NCBI RefSeq assembly: GCF_900182705.1
Contig: NZ_FXTP01000011.1
Coordinates: 62,001-126,000, forward strand
Source: Gracilimonas mengyeensis
GTDB lineage: Bacteria > Bacteroidota > Rhodothermia > Balneolales > Balneolaceae
Length of the DNA stretch: 64,000 bases
Direction: 5' to 3'
Shown in pieces: positions 2,371 to 48,342 of this stretch. Every line of letters starts with the position of its first letter. The first letter of the stretch is position 1. The notes under the pieces are model-generated. The model was not told the DNA's origin. It made no database searches and saw only the letters and a list, made by a program, of their open reading frames with translations. The position numbers and the translations under genes were made by a program.

Positions 2371-3030
2371 ATGATACTTAATACTTCATTTGCACGTGAG
2401 CTTGCGGCCCATTTGCTTGATATTAACGCGGTAATACTACGGCCAAACGATCCTTTTACGTGGACCTCAGGATGGAACTCACCCATCTATTGCGATAACA
2501 GGCTAACGCTTAGATTCCCGGAAATCCGTAACAAAATTGAGAACGAATTCACCAACATTATTCAGGAAAAGTTTTCTGATATAGATGTGGTAACCGGTAC
2601 GGCAACGGCGGGTATTCCACACGCTGCCTGGGTGGCATCAAACCTGAACAAACCTATGGCCTATGTACGGGCTAAAGCCAAAGCACACGGCATGGGTAAC
2701 CAGATTGAGGGCGGTGTTAAAAAAGGTGAATCTACGGTGGTTATCGAAGACCTTATTTCTACCGGCGGTTCTGTTATTTCGGTTGTAGAAGCCCTGCAGT
2801 TTATCGGTGCTAACGTGAACGCCATTCTTTCCATTTTTACTTATGATTTTGACAAGGCATCACAAAAATTTACGGATGCCAACGTGCCCGTTTACACTCT
2901 TACCGATTATAAAACGCTGGTAAATGTAGCCGTGGAAAAAGGTATCATTGACGGAGAGGATCTCGACGAACTTTCGAACTGGAGAGACCATCCCGATATT
3001 TGGCCCGACAGCCCCGCAGACAAAGATTGA
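2371..3030 (+). CDS. pyrE: Orotate phosphoribosyltransferase
   Basis: PyrE condenses orotate with PRPP to form orotidine 5'-phosphate in pyrimidine synthesis. The PRPP-binding loop is clear (VVIEDLISTGGSV, about residues 126-138). So is the flexible catalytic loop (RAKAKAHGMGNQIEG, about 104-118) and the VTGTATAGIPHAAWVA segment. At 219 residues it fits the long bacterial type. It begins about 50 bases after pgpA and may share its transcript. A short acidic tail follows the fold. Confidence 0.93.
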   Translation: MILNTSFARELAAHLLDINAVILRPNDPFTWTSGWNSPIYCDNRLTLRFPEIRNKIENEFTNIIQEKFSDIDVVTGTATAGIPHAAWVASNLNKPMAYVRAKAKAHGMGNQIEGGVKKGESTVVIEDLISTGGSVISVVEALQFIGANVNAILSIFTYDFDKASQKFTDANVPVYTLTDYKTLVNVAVEKGIIDGEDLDELSNWRDHPDIWPDSPADKD

Positions 3031-12428: not shown

Positions 12429-14258
12429 TTATTTAACAGGCAAGCCTTCCAATTCCATAATCTTTAAGGCATTGGTAGTAGGGCAAGGACCCGGCTTTAT
12501 TTTATATTCGAAATGCATCTTTCCGTCCTCAATCGTCTCAGCAAAATGCCAGTTACTCAGTTGCGGAATCTCACTTTCCAGGGCAGATAATTCCAGGTCA
12601 TGCGTAGAAACCATTCCAACCCCATTTTTACCAGCAACATTTTTAAGAAAAGCCGCACTCCCCTGATATCGCTCCCGGTTGTTGGTTCCTTTGAAGATTT
12701 CATCCACAAAATAAAAAAGCGGAAGTTCATGCTCATCTTCCAGTTCATTCATCAACCTGCGAAGCCTTCGTACTTCCGCGTAGAAATGCGACAGCCCATC
12801 GCCCAGCGAGTCTTTCACGTTAATACTGGTAAAAAGGCGAAACAACCTGCTCTCTAAAGTTTGAGCACAAACAGTAGCTCCGGCAAAACTCAACACCAGG
12901 TTGATACCCACGGTCCGCAAAAAAGTACTTTTCCCTGCCATATTGGAACCTGTGATGAGGAATAAATCTTTACCCTGTTCTATTTTAAAGTCATTGCTAA
13001 CCCGCTCATGTTCAGGTATTAGCGGATGCCCCAACCCTTGGGCCTCAAACAAGAGATCATCTTTATCATCAAGTACAGGAAAATTATACTCCGGATGAAG
13101 CGATGAAAAATTAGCCAACGAGTTCAGCGCCTCCAGCTGATAAAAAAGATCCAGCCACTCACTAAGTCTGGGTTCAAGGTCTTGCTTAAGGTTTTCCATC
13201 TTCATGGAATAATACATATCCCAGGGAATAATTAAATTTACGATAGGCCCGACAAATTGGTTTTTTTGGATAGATGCCGGTCCGGTAATTTTGTTCACCT
13301 TATTTAAGTAAACCGACGGTTTGGTATCTGCCTCGTGATAAGCCTTCAGGAAGTCAGCCAGCTTTGGTTTTCTGGAAAGCTCAAAATTCTCTACATGCAG
13401 CAGCAGCGACCGAAACCGGCTCAATAACTTCTCCATTTGATAGGCTGCTTCAAACAATCCCTCTGTTTTCTCACTGTAAAACTTATAGACAGATAAGTAT
13501 ACCACCAAGCCAAATACCATTGGCAACCAACTCAACATCCCAATAAGAGCGGCCATGCCTGCAGTGATATTAAAAAGTGAAAGCACTGAAAGAATCACCA
13601 ATGGCTTTATAAAACCTTGCTTTTTGGGAAGGCGGAGCCACTTCAGCATATCCTCCATCCCCCAGTCTTTTTCCGATTCATGAATAACAGTGTATTTTCC
13701 CAATGCAGCCAGTTTATCCCGGAAAGCCTGTAGTGGAATCAATTCGCGAACCAATCCTTGCCGTTCTTTTACTGCCGATTCCTTCGGTTCGGTATTAGTG
13801 AGCCAGTCTAATAATATCTGGCTGCCCCCTTTATATACCGAGGTATCCAGCAGACGGTGCAGCGATCGCTTTCCAATAATATTCAAGTCATCAGCATAAG
13901 CATGGTCATCAAGCTCTGGAGTGATCTTAAGTTCGGGGATCTCCTCCCATTCTAATTCCATGCGGGCAATATGCTCTTGTTTGATCTTTTTTAAATGCCC
14001 CAACTTTTCAATGGCCTGATGCACTTTATAGTGCCGGCTAACCAAATAAATAAAACCTGCTATTCCAGCAATTAATCCTGCCGTCCATACATAATCATTT
14101 AACAAATCGGCTGTAAAAAAAACGAAAGCCAAAATGACAAAAAACACCACACCCCGTGCCCAGGAAAACTTTGTGCTGCACTCTCTAAATTTCTCTACGT
14201 GATGATCAATACGCCTGCAATGGCGCTCATATAACTCTTTTTGCTTATGATGATTCAT
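12429..14258 (-). CDS. Membrane-anchored MutS-family ATPase (MutS-like, Bacteroidota type)
   Basis: A 609-residue protein with two N-terminal hydrophobic helices (about residues 34-52 and 57-71) and two more near 218-260. These are followed by a MutS clamp/lever-like region and a C-terminal MutS ATPase domain. Walker A is GSNMAGKST (about residue 436). The FYFVDEIFKGTNNRERY Walker B/signature and GVGMVSTHDLELS (H-loop) are intact. There is no mismatch-recognition domain, so it is not the canonical MutS. Such membrane MutS homologues are widespread in Bacteroidota with no settled role. It is monocistronic. Confidence 0.82.
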   Translation of the reverse strand: MNHHKQKELYERHCRRIDHHVEKFRECSTKFSWARGVVFFVILAFVFFTADLLNDYVWTAGLIAGIAGFIYLVSRHYKVHQAIEKLGHLKKIKQEHIARMELEWEEIPELKITPELDDHAYADDLNIIGKRSLHRLLDTSVYKGGSQILLDWLTNTEPKESAVKERQGLVRELIPLQAFRDKLAALGKYTVIHESEKDWGMEDMLKWLRLPKKQGFIKPLVILSVLSLFNITAGMAALIGMLSWLPMVFGLVVYLSVYKFYSEKTEGLFEAAYQMEKLLSRFRSLLLHVENFELSRKPKLADFLKAYHEADTKPSVYLNKVNKITGPASIQKNQFVGPIVNLIIPWDMYYSMKMENLKQDLEPRLSEWLDLFYQLEALNSLANFSSLHPEYNFPVLDDKDDLLFEAQGLGHPLIPEHERVSNDFKIEQGKDLFLITGSNMAGKSTFLRTVGINLVLSFAGATVCAQTLESRLFRLFTSINVKDSLGDGLSHFYAEVRRLRRLMNELEDEHELPLFYFVDEIFKGTNNRERYQGSAAFLKNVAGKNGVGMVSTHDLELSALESEIPQLSNWHFAETIEDGKMHFEYKIKPGPCPTTNALKIMELEGLPVK

Positions 14259-14969: not shown

Positions 14970-15149
14970 TAATTCATGATTTTTAACCGTCAATCCAACT
15001 TGTACAATATGATGCGCGCCATGTGTATGCCCATGGGCTGTATGTGTATGATGTGCTGTACCAGTTGGAATGATAGCGGACTTATAAAATCATGAATTAG
15101 ATTTTAACCCAGAAAACGCCCGCTCATCATTCAGGTGAGCGGGCGTTTT
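14970..15149 (+). promoter_or_regulatory. Predicted Met/Cys leader-peptide transcription attenuator
   Basis: Four RNA segments can be drawn. Segment 1 (14990-15005) pairs with segment 2 (15058-15073), 14 of 16 positions. Segment 2 extended (15068-15079) can instead pair with segment 3 (15120-15132) for 12 base pairs with one bulged C at 15125, an antiterminator. Segment 3 (15113-15126) pairs perfectly with segment 4 (15136-15149) to form the terminator. The Met/Cys codon run of the leader ORF lies exactly in the loop between segments 1 and 2. An outer stem (14970-14983 with 15086-15099) pairs the start-codon region with the stop-codon region. This is the logic of trp/his attenuators. The pairings are seen in the sequence; the regulation is inferred. 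Confidence 0.7.
14976..15095 (+). CDS. Met/Cys-rich leader peptide (39 residues)
   Basis: This short frame begins ATG at 14976 and ends TGA at 15095. It encodes nine Met and five Cys in 39 residues, concentrated as MMRAMCMPMGCMCMMCCTS at positions 12-30. It sits about 135 bases ahead of the SusC-like start, with a strong intrinsic terminator between them. The composition suggests a sensor of charged Met-tRNA and Cys-tRNA. A metal (copper)-sensing role through the Cys/Met side chains is the main alternative, as for Cys-containing upstream ORFs known to control TonB receptors. No homologue is known to me; translation is untested. Confidence 0.65.
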   Translation: MIFNRQSNLYNMMRAMCMPMGCMCMMCCTSWNDSGLIKS

Positions 15150-15155
15150 TTGTTT
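15113..15155 (+). terminator. Intrinsic terminator/attenuator ahead of the SusC-like gene
   Basis: A perfect 14-bp stem (15113-15126 with 15136-15149) with a nine-base loop is followed by a T tract (TTTTTTGTTT). It lies 75 bases before the SusC-like ATG and 18 bases after the leader-peptide stop, so it must be passed or disabled for the locus to be expressed from an upstream promoter. Confidence 0.9.
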
Positions 15156-15229
15156 ACGCCTTTCTCTCCTGTTGATGTGTGTCGGGCTCCAGACGATATA
15201 ACCCAAAACACACATACCCTAACAAACGA

Positions 15230-18200
15230 ATGAACACTGATACCACTCACTCTTTCAGGCGCTTTGCCTGGAAAATATCTGTATTGCTGTTTGGCCTTTT
15301 TACGGCCCTTCAGCCCTTAAGCAACGCTCAAAGCTCCGTCTCCGGGGTGATCACCGATGCCGCCACCGGCGAGCCCATCATTGGAGCCAACATTATGGTA
15401 GAAGGCACCAATAAAGGCGCCGCTACTAATATTGATGGCGAATATGTGATCGAAGGCCTCTCGGCAGGCAATTATACCCTGCGGGTGCGGTACATCGGTT
15501 TTAAAGAACAAACCCAGGAAATTGCATTAGACGAAAACGAAGACTTGTCACTCGACTTCCAGTTGGAGCAAGGCTCCATCAACCTGGATGAAGTGGTGGT
15601 TACCGGTACGGGCGGACCTGTAGAGGTACGCAAGCTCGGTAATACCATTGGTCGTGTAGACGCCAGCGAACTGGAAAACACGCCCATCCAGAGTTTCTCG
15701 GATGTACTGCAAGGGCGCGTAGCCGGCCTTACCGGACTGCCCTCCAGTGGTGTAACCGGTGAAGGTTCACGCATACGTATTCGCGGTTCCTCCAGTCTTT
15801 CGCAAAGCAACGAACCGATTGTACTTGTAGATGGAATCCGCGTGGATAATGGCGGTGGCTTTGGCGGTTCGGTTAGTGCCGGTGGTAGCGCCTCTCCTTC
15901 CCGACTGGATGACATCAACCCCTCCTCCATCGACCGCGTTGAAGTGCTCAAAGGAGCCGCAGCGGCTACGCTCTATGGTACCGAGGCTTCCAATGGCGTA
16001 ATCCAGATCTTCACCAAAAATGGTCGTGCCAATGCACCCCAGTTCGATTTCAAAGTAACGCAAGGCGCCATTAATTATCCCAAAACCATTCCAGATAACG
16101 TTGGTTTTGCCCGCACGCAAGCCCAGGCCGATACCATGAGTTTCTATTACGATCAGGACATTGATCCCTGGGAGCTGGTATCCAGAAATTATGTGCATCA
16201 GCTGTACGAAACCGGGATCACCCAGGAATATTCCGGAAGCATCAGCGGAGGAACCGAAGGTATCACCTATTATGTAAACACCCGCTGGATGGATGAAAAC
16301 GGCCCGCACTCCGGGGAAAATATTCCTTTCCCAAATGGCACAAAATCCCTGGCTGATGATCAGTTGAATCGATTTCAAACCAATGCCAACATCAGCATTT
16401 TTCCGGTAGATAATCTGCAAATCCGGTTCAAATCGGCCTACACACAGACCAACCTGGAGACTTTCCAAACGGGTAACAACGTACAGGGTGTAACCTCCGG
16501 TGCCATGCACGGCAAGCCGGAATTGGTTTCCTATGATAACAGATCGGGTACTTCCTACAGTGCTACTTTGCAGGAACGCCTACAGCAAACCGTTGAACAG
16601 GAAGTACAGGCGTTTAACACCAGCTTGGGCCTGAATTACCGCCCGTTAGAAACATTGACACTCGACGGTACTTTTGGCATCAGTTATACCAGTCAGTTTA
16701 GTGAGGAAGTGCGTCCTTTTGGCTGGAACATCAACAACTACGCCAGCATTGAAACCGAAGGATCACGTATAACATCCGATCGTTCGAACCTCAACATCAC
16801 CGCCGATGTAAAAGCCATTGCGAACCATCAATTGAACGAGCGTTTTGAGTCTACCTTTATTGGGGGATTCCAGGTTTTTCAACAACAGAACTTGGTACGT
16901 AGTGCCACAGGAATCAGTTTTCCTGGTCCGGGCCTGAATGTGACCGGGGCTGCCGCCGAGCAAAGCGTGAACGAAACCTACATCGAAGAAACACAGACCG
17001 GTATCTTCTTGCAGGAGCAGATTGGTTTTGACGATCATATTTTCGTAACCGCCGGAGCCCGTCTGGATGCCCACAGTGCTTTCGGTTCCGATTTCGATGC
17101 CGTTATCTATCCCAAGCTTTCCGGTTCCTATGTATTTTCGGATGCTCCTTACTGGGAAGAGAATGAAACGATCTCATCGCTTAGGTTGCGAGCGGCAGTG
17201 GGACAGTCTGGTCTGCAGCCCGGAGCCTTTGATGCCCTTACCACCTACGCCTCTCTTACCTCAGGCAATGGCGCTGGAATCGTACCTCAAAACCTCGGTA
17301 ATCCCGATCTGAAACCGGAAATTTCTACCGAGTATGAGCTTGGAGTAGATGCCGGCTTTTTCCAGGAGCGCGTTACTTTAGATGCCACCTACTGGGACCG
17401 TACCGTTCGTGATGCCTTGGTGCAGCGCAATTTCCCGGCCAGTGGAGGATTCCTGCAGCCCCAGCTGGATAACATTGGCGAACTGAAAGGCCGTGGAGTG
17501 GAAATCGGACTCGAATTCCGCATCGTGGAAAACAAAACGTGGTCGGCCGATGTGTTTACCAACACCGCCTACCTCTGGGAACAAGTAACCTCACTTGGAG
17601 GCGCTGCTCCTATCAAGGTTGGCGGAAGCTATCCGCGCTATCGTCAGTACCTGATCGAAGGCTACGCGCCCGGTTCCAACTTTGGAGCTAAGCTTCAGGA
17701 TGTACAAGACGGCTACCTGCCACTAGATCAACGCGGATTACTGGAAGCACTGGGACGTGATGTATCCGGCTTGAATTACGGAGAAGCGGCCAGCCGCGAA
17801 CTGGTGCTGGATTACCTCAGCAGTCTTACCCCCGGCACTGCCGATCTGGAAACCTTGAACAGCTACATTTTACTGGCTGATGAAGACGGAGACGACAATC
17901 CCTTGGATCATTACCTCGGCAAACCCACGCCCGACTGGACCGGTTCTTTTGGCGGATCGCTTCGATACAAGAACTTCACAGTCTCTACCCTATTTGAATA
18001 CAGCGCCGGCAACTTTTATGTGAATAACCTCACGGAAGGTTTCCGAAACCGTAGCGCAGGTATTGGGCGCAATACACCAGATGCCGCGCGAGTGGATCGC
18101 AACTACACCACTGGCGGTATAGATTCCGACAATCAGCCCCAAAATAACGGAGAAGTTCGCCTTGATGCCGCTGAAGAGTGGCTGGATGAACTCGTGGCAC

Positions 18201-18502
18201 TGGACCCATTCCCCGGCCTGAATGCTATTCAACCCGCTGATTTCATTCGTCTGCGAGAACTGAGCCTGACTTATAACCTGGCTCCGCAGCTGCTGGATCG
18301 CTTCAACATCCGCAGGTTATCCTTTACCCTTTCGGGCAGAAACCTGGCGCTCTGGACCAAATATTCCGGACCCGACCCTGAGGTAAATGCCATTGGTCGC
18401 AGCGGCGGTACTGATCTGGAAAACAACTACCTGCTGGGTACCGATGCCTGGAATATGCCGCTGCCCCGACGCATCCTCTTCACCGTAAACCTGGGGATTT
18501 AA
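15230..18502 (+). CDS. SusC/RagA family TonB-dependent outer-membrane transporter
   Basis: About 1090 residues. The start chosen is ATG 15230, ahead of a standard signal peptide ending near LSNAQSS; the frame could open at GTG 15179 but that adds a non-signal stretch. Next come a carboxypeptidase-regulatory-like domain (SVSGVITDAATGEPIIGANI), a TonB-box-like LDEVVVTGTG, and the plug (SDVLQGRVAGLTG, then RIRIRGSSSLSQSNEPIVLV). The rest is the 22-strand barrel. SusC-type transporters import oligomers captured by the SusD partner. The neighbouring M14 peptidase points to peptides as substrate. Expression is probably governed by the attenuator upstream. Confidence 0.92.
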   Translation: MNTDTTHSFRRFAWKISVLLFGLFTALQPLSNAQSSVSGVITDAATGEPIIGANIMVEGTNKGAATNIDGEYVIEGLSAGNYTLRVRYIGFKEQTQEIALDENEDLSLDFQLEQGSINLDEVVVTGTGGPVEVRKLGNTIGRVDASELENTPIQSFSDVLQGRVAGLTGLPSSGVTGEGSRIRIRGSSSLSQSNEPIVLVDGIRVDNGGGFGGSVSAGGSASPSRLDDINPSSIDRVEVLKGAAAATLYGTEASNGVIQIFTKNGRANAPQFDFKVTQGAINYPKTIPDNVGFARTQAQADTMSFYYDQDIDPWELVSRNYVHQLYETGITQEYSGSISGGTEGITYYVNTRWMDENGPHSGENIPFPNGTKSLADDQLNRFQTNANISIFPVDNLQIRFKSAYTQTNLETFQTGNNVQGVTSGAMHGKPELVSYDNRSGTSYSATLQERLQQTVEQEVQAFNTSLGLNYRPLETLTLDGTFGISYTSQFSEEVRPFGWNINNYASIETEGSRITSDRSNLNITADVKAIANHQLNERFESTFIGGFQVFQQQNLVRSATGISFPGPGLNVTGAAAEQSVNETYIEETQTGIFLQEQIGFDDHIFVTAGARLDAHSAFGSDFDAVIYPKLSGSYVFSDAPYWEENETISSLRLRAAVGQSGLQPGAFDALTTYASLTSGNGAGIVPQNLGNPDLKPEISTEYELGVDAGFFQERVTLDATYWDRTVRDALVQRNFPASGGFLQPQLDNIGELKGRGVEIGLEFRIVENKTWSADVFTNTAYLWEQVTSLGGAAPIKVGGSYPRYRQYLIEGYAPGSNFGAKLQDVQDGYLPLDQRGLLEALGRDVSGLNYGEAASRELVLDYLSSLTPGTADLETLNSYILLADEDGDDNPLDHYLGKPTPDWTGSFGGSLRYKNFTVSTLFEYSAGNFYVNNLTEGFRNRSAGIGRNTPDAARVDRNYTTGGIDSDNQPQNNGEVRLDAAEEWLDELVALDPFPGLNAIQPADFIRLRELSLTYNLAPQLLDRFNIRRLSFTLSGRNLALWTKYSGPDPEVNAIGRSGGTDLENNYLLGTDAWNMPLPRRILFTVNLGI

Positions 18503-19870: not shown

Positions 19871-20189
19871 TCAATGATGAATTTAGGTTTATGTGAGTTT
19901 ACCATAGCCATACCTTAGGTAGATATAAAATCCGTCATTGCGAAGGCTGCCGTGACCGAAGGGAACACAGCCTGTGGCAATCTCCCGGAGAATGCCTCTG
20001 AGCGTTGTCAGGGAGATCGCTTCGTCGGAAGAAATAGTATCTTATTTAAACAAATGGCCTCCTCGCGATGACCAGCCAATTTTTACATCATTCTTATTTC
20101 TGTCCAAGGCGTACCCTGAGCAGAATCACAATATTTACCCTATACTCTCATAGAATTTTTTAAATCACGATATCAAATCAATCAAACCT
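19871..20189. repeat. Intergenic repeat with cattgcgaaggct-type blocks
   Basis: This 319-base gap between the SusD-like and M14 genes holds CATTGCGAAGGCTGCCGT near 19937 and GCCTCCTCGCGATGACC near 20059, matching 12260-12335. No terminator or ORF is evident, so the M14 gene may still be co-transcribed or have its own promoter here. Confidence 0.45.
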
Positions 20190-22793
20190 ATGAACTTTAG
20201 CAAGACCATTAAAAAAGCTTATTGGGTACTGGCGGCCGCACTTTTTGTGCTGGCCAGCTCATCCCAAGCCGTTGCTCAAAACGATTATTATTTCCCGGAA
20301 GGATCGGAATTTGACGAATCCATCCCCACCCCGGAAGAATTTCTGGGCTACGAAATCGGAACCCATTATACCCGTCACGATCGCATTGTCGATTACTTTG
20401 AGGAGTTAGCCCGTATTTCTGATAAAGCGTCCTTACAGGTAATTGGACAAACCGTGCAAAAACGTCCACAGGTGGTGCTGACGATCACCGATCCCGCCAA
20501 TCATCAAAACCTGGAGGAAATCCGCGAAAATCACCTTACGCTGATTGATCCGGATGCAGACCTTCTGGATATCGAAGAAGCCAAATCGGTGGTGGCACTA
20601 AACTACAGCGTGCACGGCGATGAAAGCTCCAGTGGCGAGGCGGCGCTGCTTACAGCCTATTATTTCGTTGCCAACCAAAGTGCGGAAACACAGAATTTGC
20701 TGGAAGAGTCCATCATTCATATTGACCCGGCTCAAAACCCCGATGGACGCGACCGTGCCGCCCACTGGCATAACAGCTACAAGTCCTTCCCTCCCGTGTC
20801 CGATCCCAACGACATCGAGCACAACCAGGGCTGGCCCCGCGGACGTACCAACCATTTTCTGCACGACCTGAACCGTGACTGGTTTGCCGTCACCCAGCAG
20901 GAAAGCGCCAACCGTGTGGCCTTTTACCAGAAATGGTATCCCAACATCCAGATTGATTTCCACGAGATGGGGACCAACAGCACCTATTATTTAGAGCCCA
21001 CGCAACCCGAACGCACCTGGAACCCCATCGTTCCGGAATACCATTACGAAGTGCTGAACCCGCTACTGGCTGAATATCACACCGATGCGCTGAACGAATT
21101 GGGCGCCCTCTACTGGACCAAAGAAGTATTCGACAACATCTCCCCCATTTACGGCTCCACCTATCCTGATATCCTCGGCGGCGTGGGCGTAACTTTTGAA
21201 GTAGGAAGCTCCCGCGGACTGGTGCAAGAAAGCGTGGCCGGTGATGTCACTTTTGAAAACACTATCCGCCGTCATCTCCGCACAGGTATTGCTACCGTTC
21301 GGGCCGGCGTAGGCGAAAAGAAAACCCTGCTGGAATATCAGAAAGATTTCTACGAGACTGCTCTGGAAGAAGCGGAAGACCAGCCGGTACGTGCCTATGT
21401 TTTTGGGGATGAAGCTGACAAAACCCTCACCAATAAATTCCTGGATCTGCTGCTGAAGCACAAACTGGAAGTGTACAAACTTGAGGAAGAACGCACCGTG
21501 GATGGCAAAACCTTCAGTCCGGAAGCCGGCTACATCCTGCCCACCAGCCAGGCCAACTACCGCCTGATTCACGACATCTTTGAAACCTACACCGAATATG
21601 CCGACAGCGTGTTTTATGACATCACGGCCTGGTCGCTGGTGCAGGGATATGGCATCAAGTACGGAGAAATTACTTCCGGCGGCTACAATCGCGACTGGGG
21701 CACACCGGTTGAATCGGTGCCCGAGCAAGAAGGCAAAGTAGTGGGCGGCCAAGCCGATTATGCCTACCTGCTTTCCTGGAGTGATTACAATGCCTCCGCT
21801 GCCCTCTACCACCTGCTGGATGAAGGCGTACGAGCACGCGTGGCCCATCAGCCCTTCACTTCGCCTACCAGCGGCGGTGACGTTGATTTTGGCTACGGCT
21901 CAGTCATTATCTCCGTGGCAGAACAGGACAACCACAGCCCGGATGAATTGTATGAAGTGATTGAAGCCACGGCCGAGGAATTTAGCCTGACCTTTCATAC
22001 CACCTCCACCGGCTACAACACCGGCGGTATCGATCTTGGAAGTGGCAACGCACAAGTGGTTGATAAGCCAGAAGCGGCTGTGGTATTCGGCTATGGCGTA
22101 AGCGCCTATGATGCCGGCGAAGCCTGGTTCCTGCTAAACAAGCACTTAGGCATCGACATCACCAAAATTAACAGTGTTGATTTCGGCGATGTGAATCTCT
22201 CCCGCTACAACACCCTGCTGCTGGTAGATGGGGATTACGAGTATTTTGACCAGGAAATCATTGATAAAATTAAAACCTGGGTGAATGACGGCGGAACCCT
22301 GATTACTTCAGCCGGAGCTTCCGTTTGGGCCGTACGAAACGAGATCGTTTCCGAAAACTTCCTTGATAGCGGCGAAGATACTTCTGCAGCTGAAGAAGAT
22401 GAGACCGTCCGTTACAACTATGAAGAACGCCGCGACCGCTGGCTGGCCGGACGTATTCCCGGCGTGATTTTGGAAGCGGATATCGATCCAAGTCACCCCA
22501 TCGCCTTTGGCACGGAAGACCGCAGCCAGTTATTCCTGAAAGAAAACGGACACTTCCTGTATCCTTCCTCCGATCCGTATGGCACCGTTGCGTATTATGG
22601 GGATGATCCTCACCGCGGTGGTTTCCTGAATGAAGCCAACAAAGAAAAGGTAAAGAATAAAGCCTCCATCTTGGTCTCCGGTGAAGGAAGCGGAAATGTG
22701 ATTCTGTTTTCCGAAAATCCCACCTTCCGCAGCTACTGGCACACCTCCAGCCGATTGCTCTTGAATGCCTTACTTTTTGGCAATAACTTATAA
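20190..22793 (+). CDS. Secreted M14-family zinc metallocarboxypeptidase with C-terminal GATase1-like domain
   Basis: An 867-residue secreted enzyme with signal peptide (ASSSQAVAQ) and an M14 catalytic domain. Zinc ligands are H132 and E135 in HGDESS and H248 in DFHEMG. The catalytic Glu is E327 in TFEVGSSRG, and the substrate-binding Arg is in NPDGRDR or LNRDW. After about residue 600 comes a separate domain (VVFGYGVSAYDAG, NTLLLVDGDYEYF, WVNDGGTLITS) that looks like a class I amidotransferase-like fold without an obvious nucleophile Cys. It would trim C-terminal residues from peptides outside the cell or in the periplasm, feeding the SusC/D pair. Confidence 0.9.
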   Translation: MNFSKTIKKAYWVLAAALFVLASSSQAVAQNDYYFPEGSEFDESIPTPEEFLGYEIGTHYTRHDRIVDYFEELARISDKASLQVIGQTVQKRPQVVLTITDPANHQNLEEIRENHLTLIDPDADLLDIEEAKSVVALNYSVHGDESSSGEAALLTAYYFVANQSAETQNLLEESIIHIDPAQNPDGRDRAAHWHNSYKSFPPVSDPNDIEHNQGWPRGRTNHFLHDLNRDWFAVTQQESANRVAFYQKWYPNIQIDFHEMGTNSTYYLEPTQPERTWNPIVPEYHYEVLNPLLAEYHTDALNELGALYWTKEVFDNISPIYGSTYPDILGGVGVTFEVGSSRGLVQESVAGDVTFENTIRRHLRTGIATVRAGVGEKKTLLEYQKDFYETALEEAEDQPVRAYVFGDEADKTLTNKFLDLLLKHKLEVYKLEEERTVDGKTFSPEAGYILPTSQANYRLIHDIFETYTEYADSVFYDITAWSLVQGYGIKYGEITSGGYNRDWGTPVESVPEQEGKVVGGQADYAYLLSWSDYNASAALYHLLDEGVRARVAHQPFTSPTSGGDVDFGYGSVIISVAEQDNHSPDELYEVIEATAEEFSLTFHTTSTGYNTGGIDLGSGNAQVVDKPEAAVVFGYGVSAYDAGEAWFLLNKHLGIDITKINSVDFGDVNLSRYNTLLLVDGDYEYFDQEIIDKIKTWVNDGGTLITSAGASVWAVRNEIVSENFLDSGEDTSAAEEDETVRYNYEERRDRWLAGRIPGVILEADIDPSHPIAFGTEDRSQLFLKENGHFLYPSSDPYGTVAYYGDDPHRGGFLNEANKEKVKNKASILVSGEGSGNVILFSENPTFRSYWHTSSRLLLNALLFGNNL

Positions 22794-47930: not shown

Positions 47931-48342
47931 CTCGTTACCAAGCTCCTGCTTTGTAATGCATTCCGGAAAGCTCCAGCTTCCTTTTCCACAGTGGCAACGT
48001 ATTGTCCAATCTCCGATCACCATCATTATCTTTCCAATTATTCGGGCGGAGATTTTTCAGACTGCTTCTTACACCCCGGGTTAAAACCCGGGGCTATTCA
48101 TGTTTCATCCCTTCGGGATTTTATACATGCCACTTGTTAATCCTGTACATCATCAAAATCCTTTAAATCCGGGTTCAAATAACCTCCAATTACAAGCAAA
48201 CAGAAGATCTATCGAAGTTGCACTTCGAAAGTACCAGCCCGGCAAGGCTGTGCCTTCCACTAAGCAAATACCTGAACCATTCCGAGTGAAGGCTTAGCCT
48301 TCTATTACGCTTACTTTTCAAGTACAACTTGAAAAGATCCGT
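47931..48342. repeat. Repeat array, unit B (direct copy of 47340-47750)
   Basis: This reproduces unit A from its REP double hairpin (47931-47981) through the CAGTGGCAACGTATTG block to the CTTTTCAAGTACAACTTG hairpin at the end. Only scattered substitutions and small indels are seen, including ATCCCTAACGGG versus ATCCCTTCGGG. Near-identity suggests a recent duplication. Confidence 0.85.

Follow-up and report, generated by a model that had tools for sequence, protein, structure and literature searches.

A candidate Met/Cys leader-peptide attenuator ahead of a SusCD-carboxypeptidase locus in Gracilimonas mengyeensis and its sister leaders at sulfur genes

The leader region and its gene neighbourhood

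The window, a stretch of 64,000 nucleotides from Gracilimonas mengyeensis, carries genes for a SusC/RagA family outer-membrane protein, a SusD-like protein and an M14 carboxypeptidase, which are preceded by a short leader ORF rich in Met and Cys codons and by an intrinsic terminator (Table 1). By sequence, the solved structures closest to the SusC protein are 8aa4, followed by RagA (6sli) and BT_2264 (5fq6). In the excerpt of PMC11817032, RagAB is described as a peptide uptake system, and the likeness of the window SusC to RagA supports peptide import by analogy, without proving it. The SusD-like protein is a weak family member by score; in five relatives (L063, L064, L067, L069 and L072) a SusD-like partner 58-67% identical to it also adjoins SusC. 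Between the SusD and M14 genes, positions 19934-20024 of the window hold a palindrome-like element (GTCATTGCGAAGG ... GGGAGATCGCTTCG), whereas in L064 the two genes lie close together. The MutS-domain gene upstream of the leader is divergent, and the terminator is therefore not that of a convergent gene.

Table 1. Features of the leader region and neighbouring genes, in window coordinates
Feature	Position	Strand	Evidence or remark
MutS-domain gene, divergent, upstream of leader	12429-14258	minus	
Outer stem, 5' arm, containing the leader start codon	14970-14983	+	fold; 14/14 pairs with 15086-15099
Leader ORF, 39 codons	14976-15095	+	MIFNRQSNLYNMMRAMCMPMGCMCMMCCTSWNDSGLIKS; 9 Met and 5 Cys
Segment 1	14990-15005	+	1:2, pairs with 15058-15073, 14/16 Watson-Crick; 3/300 shuffles as good
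Met/Cys codon run, proposed stall site	15009-15059	+	
Segment 2	15058-15079	+	15058-15073 pairs with segment 1; 2:3, 15068-15079 pairs with 15120-15132, 12 bp with a single bulged C at 15125; equalled in 7/300 shuffles
Outer stem, 3' arm	15086-15099	+	fold, sequence
Segment 3, forming the 5' arm of the terminator and most of its loop; pairs with segment 2 in the antiterminator	15113-15132	+	3:4, 15113-15126 pairs with 15136-15149, 14/14
Segment 4, terminator 3' arm and U-run	15134-15151	+	
SusC/RagA family TonB-linked outer-membrane protein	15230-18502	+	TIGR04056, 527 bits (cut-off 368)
SusD-like protein, weak family score	18551-19870	+	PF07980, E 1.9e-4, 21.6 bits, below the 23.1 cut-off
M14 zinc carboxypeptidase	20190-22793	+	PF00246, E 6e-16

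An earlier note on this DNA, made from the letters alone, had described a 39-codon ORF with nine Met and five Cys codons, a strong intrinsic terminator behind it and three mutually exclusive pairings. All of these were found again, and the pairings agreed to the base. The terminator hairpin (15113-15149) begins 17 nt past the leader stop codon, and it was missing from the output of a simple terminator pattern scan. When the Met/Cys run is defined as the densest eight codons, its end lies 11 nt 5' of the 2:3 core. In addition to these elements, an outer stem of 14 bp, absent from the earlier description, encloses the start codon of the leader itself. The region 14970-15165 folds to -81.6 kcal/mol, against a mean of -45.2 for shuffled sequences (z -8.8), and none of 200 shuffles was as stable. 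Ahead of the leader no clear promoter was seen, the best site having 8 of 12 matching positions in the window as in L063-L065, and sites of 9-11 of 12 were present in L067, L069 and L072.

The leader region gave no match to an Rfam family. A SAM riboswitch, or any other Rfam family, was thus rejected as the identity of the leader, since the sole Rfam match in the window is an unrelated one at 48074. That match (48074-48120) is to Acido-Lenti-1 (RF01687) and is barely over the gathering score.

Leaders at related SusC loci and at sulfur genes

A scan of GTDB contigs with the window SusC revealed loci of 73% (L063), 64% (Fodinibius sediminis, L064) and 61% identity (L065), as well as a distant one of 30% (L066). 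Genome searches added loci of 68-72% identity in G028, G070 and G067. Genomes G071 and G092 carry the loci of L064 and L063, and each was counted once, which gives seven distinct loci with the window included. The earlier note had proposed looking for conserved Met/Cys leaders ahead of related SusC genes, and a Met/Cys-rich leader ORF followed by a terminator 17-21 nt past the stop codon is indeed present at all seven loci of at least 61% identity. The leader peptides of the relatives are only 28-59% identical to that of the window. Among SusC relatives at 52-57% identity (L082-L092, 11 loci, L083 being from the same family), where two candidates per genome were scored and loci may be missed, no same-strand upstream ORF reached five Met/Cys in 12 codons.

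Within the genome of the window, upstream ORFs at 29 other TonB-receptor loci never exceed five Met/Cys in 10 codons, and a single locus attains five. This survey comprised 30 loci drawn from 58 matches, of which L050 and L051 are one gene and L062 comes without upstream DNA. That the leader belongs to the M14 gene and not to SusC was considered and rejected. Five genomes (G014, G073, G032, G064 and G022) count against it: they carry an M14 orthologue of at least 59% identity with no SusC match in about 7.5 kb upstream and no ORF with at least six Met/Cys in 12 codons. In G014 and G073 there is one same-strand ORF each with five Met/Cys in 12, some 4-5 kb from M14. As a separate observation, locus L076 (G099) has a distant SusC (24%) near a 46% M14, and on its minus strand (reverse-complement 2895-3008) a short ORF ending in MCMCMINCCC precedes the aligned SusC start by about 200 nt; no terminator-like hairpin was found by the script at this ORF.

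The orthologues bear on a reading in which the leader is a stand-alone hairpin, a small RNA or what is left of a mobile palindrome, equipped with a terminator of its own; the ORF would then be accidental, and SusC would have a separate promoter downstream. The ORF does sit within an imperfect palindrome of 130 nt, with a 69% match to its own reverse complement. Against such an origin, the orthologues have diverged in sequence while their reading frame, Met/Cys run and terminator spacing, and for the most part their pairings, are conserved, and no second copy was found in this genome at E <= 0.001. When relatives were searched at the DNA level, there was one clear match (G028, E 2e-11), and all others outside this genome had E of at least 0.01. 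Moreover, the pattern scan of 15155-15230 found no promoter-like site on the plus strand, where a promoter would, as the earlier note pointed out, count against an attenuator. We regard an accidental ORF in a palindrome as having only the slightest probability, and return to a leader that would be translated and control SusC.

Leaders of the same kind are found ahead of sulfur genes. The pattern ATGTGYATGTGYATG (Met-Cys-Met-Cys-Met) occurs at 43 places in 38 of the 394 genomes of the phylum, and the reversed pattern at 7. Thirty of the 43 places were read, and half of these (15) precede sulfur genes: 13 metY, one gene for a sulfate-binding protein (L134) and one locus in the genome of the window (C15). 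The 13 metY assignments comprise nine by position, some with a small gene between, two by NCBIfam (L135 and L138) and two (L137 and L139) by the likeness of the next ORF only. In locus L134 (G146), from a more distant family, the gene for the substrate-binding protein of a sulfate ABC transporter is preceded by a Met/Cys leader and by a hairpin that resembles a terminator.

The second leader of this design in the window's genome, C15 (L187:5550-11262), reads MKTQNYIQTTTAATEQAMNCCCMCMCMMCNTPTVVDVMC, is followed by a terminator and heads an assimilatory sulfate-reduction operon with genes for a rhodanese, an assimilatory sulfite reductase, SUMT, CysH and a Met8-like protein. Across the order, with this genome counted in, 21 loci carry this rhodanese with at least 76% identity, and 20 of them have a sulfate-type leader; none is present at L252, one of two rhodanese copies in G070. 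Four loci with a rhodanese of about 50% identity (L265, L266, L269 and L270) have no leader, and L267, L268 and L271, which the leader motif of the script did not catch, are outside the rhodanese-locus count. A profile built from SusCD leaders only already matched one sulfate leader, at the rhodanese position in G068 (E 2.8e-5). A generic leader profile (A3) mostly recovers metY leaders, misses the sulfate leader of this genome and is no census.

The upstream regions of metY combine the leader with a second element. The sample covered 50 of 109 metY genomes, as 30 loci plus 20 picked for spread. A SAM riboswitch was found in 20 of 20 metY upstream regions and a Met/Cys ORF, with at least five Met/Cys in 10 codons, in 18 of them; 10 of 400 shuffled metY regions, but 4 of 20 real opposite strands, also reach this threshold. 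A terminator lies between the leader and the SAM aptamer in 17 of the 18, the script having found none for L208, and in none of these 17 did more than 27 of 300 shuffles match the 2:3 pairing. Of a further 30 metY loci, read for the leader only, 26 have a Met/Cys ORF at the same threshold, that of L157 being doubtful. The device of the window's own genome is at about 45500-47200 of C4 (G000), with relatives at L195-L212 (Balneolales). More distant families have metY with a Met/Cys leader and without an Rfam SAM match (L135, L137-L139). Scans for the SAM riboswitch (RF00162) in the window, the six other SusCD loci and 8 of the 20 sulfate loci gave no match. Judged from its sequence, the series of leader, terminator and SAM riboswitch before metY is a putative natural two-input device.

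Two more sulfur-assimilation units of this genome begin with a leader of this design, which explains why Met and Cys codons are mixed in the window leader. Past the start codon, the SusCD leaders have 7-9 Met codons and 2-9 Cys codons, and the 20 sulfate leaders total 116 Met and 117 Cys. The same attenuator might sense Met alone or Cys alone, with the other codon passive, as suggested by the lean of the SusCD leaders to Met beside the balance of the sulfate leaders. Both codons are nevertheless present in 27 of 27 leaders, and sulfur shortage should lower the charging of both tRNAs. Sensing of a single amino acid is therefore judged possible but rather unlikely.

Copper is bound by Met-x-Met and Cys motifs, and CutF is reportedly a uORF of the copper- or metal-sensing kind. 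By analogy, the Met/Cys-rich nascent peptide could bind metal and control the TonB-linked transporter. According to the excerpt of PMC9426467, the uORF CruR precedes a TonB-dependent transporter. Of the 27 leaders compared here, 24 contain CXXC, that of the window among them. This motif is missing from L065, L069 and L247, however, and looks like a by-product of Cys-dense runs; RAPP occurs in none of the 27, and a Pfam scan of five leaders gave no DUF2946 match. The window leader peptide itself had one weak Pfam match, far below the cut-off. The intrinsic terminator directly behind the ORF also speaks against a metal sensor, as do the sister leaders at sulfate reduction, metY and the sulfate-binding protein. 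The leaders before sulfate reduction and metY make the charging of Met- and Cys-tRNA far likelier than copper as the signal, and we consider metal sensing very improbable.

Conservation and modelling of the alternative pairings

The pairings predicted by a tRNA-sensing attenuator were compared in 27 leaders, seven from SusCD loci and 20 from sulfate loci; L254, for which the script mis-located the terminator and the hairpin was identified by eye in the sequence, was left out of the 2:3 tests and the models. In 26 of the 27 leaders the hairpin starts 17-28 nt past the stop codon. For the 2:3 pairing, the 3' end of the ORF was tested against the terminator 5' arm and loop with 300 shuffles, and at most 9 shuffles equalled it in 23 of 26 leaders. 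It was weak in L067 (30/300), L069 (33/300) and L072 (78/300).

The 2:3 core of the sulfate leaders is GGTAGTGG/CCACTACC, with the variants GGCAGTGG/CCGCTGCC, GATAGTGG/CCACTATC and GATAGCGG/CCGCTATC. The SusCD core is GAATGATAGYGG/CCRCT(C)ATCATTC in the window, L063 and L067, is shorter in L069 and L072 and goes down to about 7 bp in L064. Locus L065 keeps the pairing through an entirely different sequence, CGACAATGGAGG/CCTC(T)CATTGTCG.

With the 20 sulfate leaders aligned, the 2:3 positions pair in 98.8% of 160 cells, against 25-59% in slid controls. Compensatory changes occur at 3 of the 8 pairs, a number reached in 16 of 500 shuffles, and the covariation score was reached in none of 500; the relatives are not independent, and these counts overstate the number of events. 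Covariation is also seen in the terminator. Further pair types showed no excess over shuffles, either in the 2:3 pairing (142/500) or in the terminator (272/500). In the seven SusCD leaders alone, with L064 and L065 out of register, 81% of the 2:3 positions are paired and the covariation is not significant against shuffles. The compensatory changes that the earlier note had looked to are thus seen in the 2:3 pairing of the sulfate sister leaders and not at a significant level in the SusCD leaders taken by themselves.

The 1:2 pairing overlaps the 2:3 core in all 27 leaders. It stands out in only 18 of them, where no more than 7 of 300 shuffles equalled it, and it was near or no better than shuffles in L063 (162), L064 (68) and L065 (57). 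Other weak cases were L247 (58), L257 (102) and L264 (54). With the Met/Cys run again taken as the densest eight codons, 3-40 nt separate its end from the 2:3 core downstream, and in 20 of the 27 leaders the distance is 9-18 nt.

In the folding model the transcript was folded as it would be before segment 4 exists, with the stalled ribosome masked and kinetics left out. For the window, the model predicts no 2:3 pairing when the leader is free of ribosomes or when one has reached the stop codon, in line with the attenuator scheme. With a single stalled ribosome, it also predicts no 2:3 pairing at any Met/Cys codon past the start, and the probable cause is that the outer stem and 1:2 form again around the ribosome. 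When a second ribosome is placed on the start codon, 2:3 is predicted to form at 11 of 11 scored Met/Cys stalls and to be lost once the leading ribosome is beyond the run. Of the 26 leaders, 9 show a modelled 2:3 pairing above 0.5 when no ribosome is present and 12 when one sits at the stop codon, two states in which the scheme expects it to be absent. Stalls at most codons ahead of the run are also predicted to permit 2:3, and Met/Cys codons are not singled out. The model backs the attenuator logic only in part. Translation of the leader may be subject to a further control by the outer stem that encloses its start codon.

Proposed mechanism and comparison with known systems

The window leader is very probably a ribosome-mediated transcription attenuator whose input is the charging of Met-tRNA and Cys-tRNA, and thereby the sulfur amino-acid status of the cell. 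From the parts, their conservation, the alternative pairings and the gene contexts shown by the comparison, we infer translation of the leader, stalling, termination and read-through, as well as which amino acids are sensed and that peptides are imported. A ribosome would follow RNA polymerase through the leader, translating the 39-codon ORF as it is transcribed. With ample Met and Cys the ribosome would clear the run, segment 2 would be covered or back-paired with segment 1, and segments 3 and 4 would form the terminator, ending transcription near 15150. Under a shortage of Met- or Cys-tRNA, the ribosome would stall in 15009-15059 and mask segment 1; segment 2 would then pair with segment 3, the terminator would not form, and SusC, SusD and M14 would be expressed, which may provide sulfur amino acids by importing peptides and trimming them. 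Sister leaders would control assimilatory sulfate reduction and, in series with the SAM riboswitch, metY. The three-state attenuator proposed in the earlier note gains support from the conserved leaders and terminators, the alternative pairings and the sulfur-gene contexts, and the predicted mechanism class is well supported by the comparison and partly by the folding models.

The genes behind the sister leaders, for sulfate reduction and metY, serve the supply of the amino acids that would be sensed, and SusCD-M14 may do the same. On balance, we favour the view that the mixed Met and Cys leader is a single sulfur-status gate, where the ribosome would stall if either tRNA is uncharged, over a Bacteroidota regulon joining sulfate reduction, homocysteine synthesis and outer-membrane peptide scavenging; at metY, with the SAM riboswitch in series, expression would require that charged tRNA is scarce and SAM is low at the same time.

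SusCD systems are known chiefly as importers of glycans. The leader would tie the window SusCD to the sulfur economy, a testable hint at the imported substrate. If the proposal is true, leader-peptide attenuation would be extended to an outer-membrane nutrient importer, Bacteroidota would have a codon-based sulfur regulon, and a leader attenuator followed by a SAM riboswitch would offer two inputs for one gene. Among the top matches in the open-access literature, we found neither a Met/Cys attenuator on a SusCD locus nor a leader attenuator in series with a SAM riboswitch.

In the trp, his and leu attenuators, control codons in a leader ORF are combined with three alternative pairings and an intrinsic terminator, and the leader described here would share all of these. 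It differs from them in its mixed Met and Cys codons, in its Bacteroidota host and in its target, which is a SusCD outer-membrane importer with a carboxypeptidase and not a biosynthetic operon. The SAM riboswitch, for its part, stands behind a Met/Cys leader at metY and had no match in the window, the SusCD loci or the scanned sulfate loci.

Among cysteine leaders, uORFC-8-2 is described in the excerpt of PMC8632094 as a Cys attenuator before cysS in Rhodobacterales. As far as that excerpt goes, it shares with the present leader the Cys codons, the intrinsic terminator and the proposed stall at a shortage of Cys-tRNA, but has tandem Cys codons only, precedes a cysteinyl-tRNA synthetase gene and belongs to Alphaproteobacteria. 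Poly-cysteine leaders before actinobacterial cys operons are reported, in the excerpt of PMC1262725, without conserved terminator hairpins and with Rho proposed, and the excerpt of PMC13236596 assigns them to translation attenuation. They resemble our leaders as Cys-rich leaders ahead of sulfur-assimilation genes, and differ in the absence of conserved terminator hairpins and, in these excerpts, of any mention of Met codons.

CruR, a metal-sensing uORF of the DUF2946 type with CXXC, a RAPP arrest motif and Rho-dependent termination in the excerpt of PMC9426467, is alike as a short ORF before a TonB-dependent transporter and in CXXC, which most leaders here have too. On the other hand, it is, by the same source, a metal-sensing DUF2946 protein that acts through RAPP arrest and Rho. 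Closer in taxonomy, excerpts report clues to leader-peptide attenuation before amino-acid biosynthesis operons in Flavobacterium (PMC9723704) and leader-like short ORFs in Bacteroides (PMC7366714). In comparison with these systems, the attenuator class itself is known, and what would be new is the mixed Met and Cys sensor, the outer-membrane importer as a target and the sulfur regulon.
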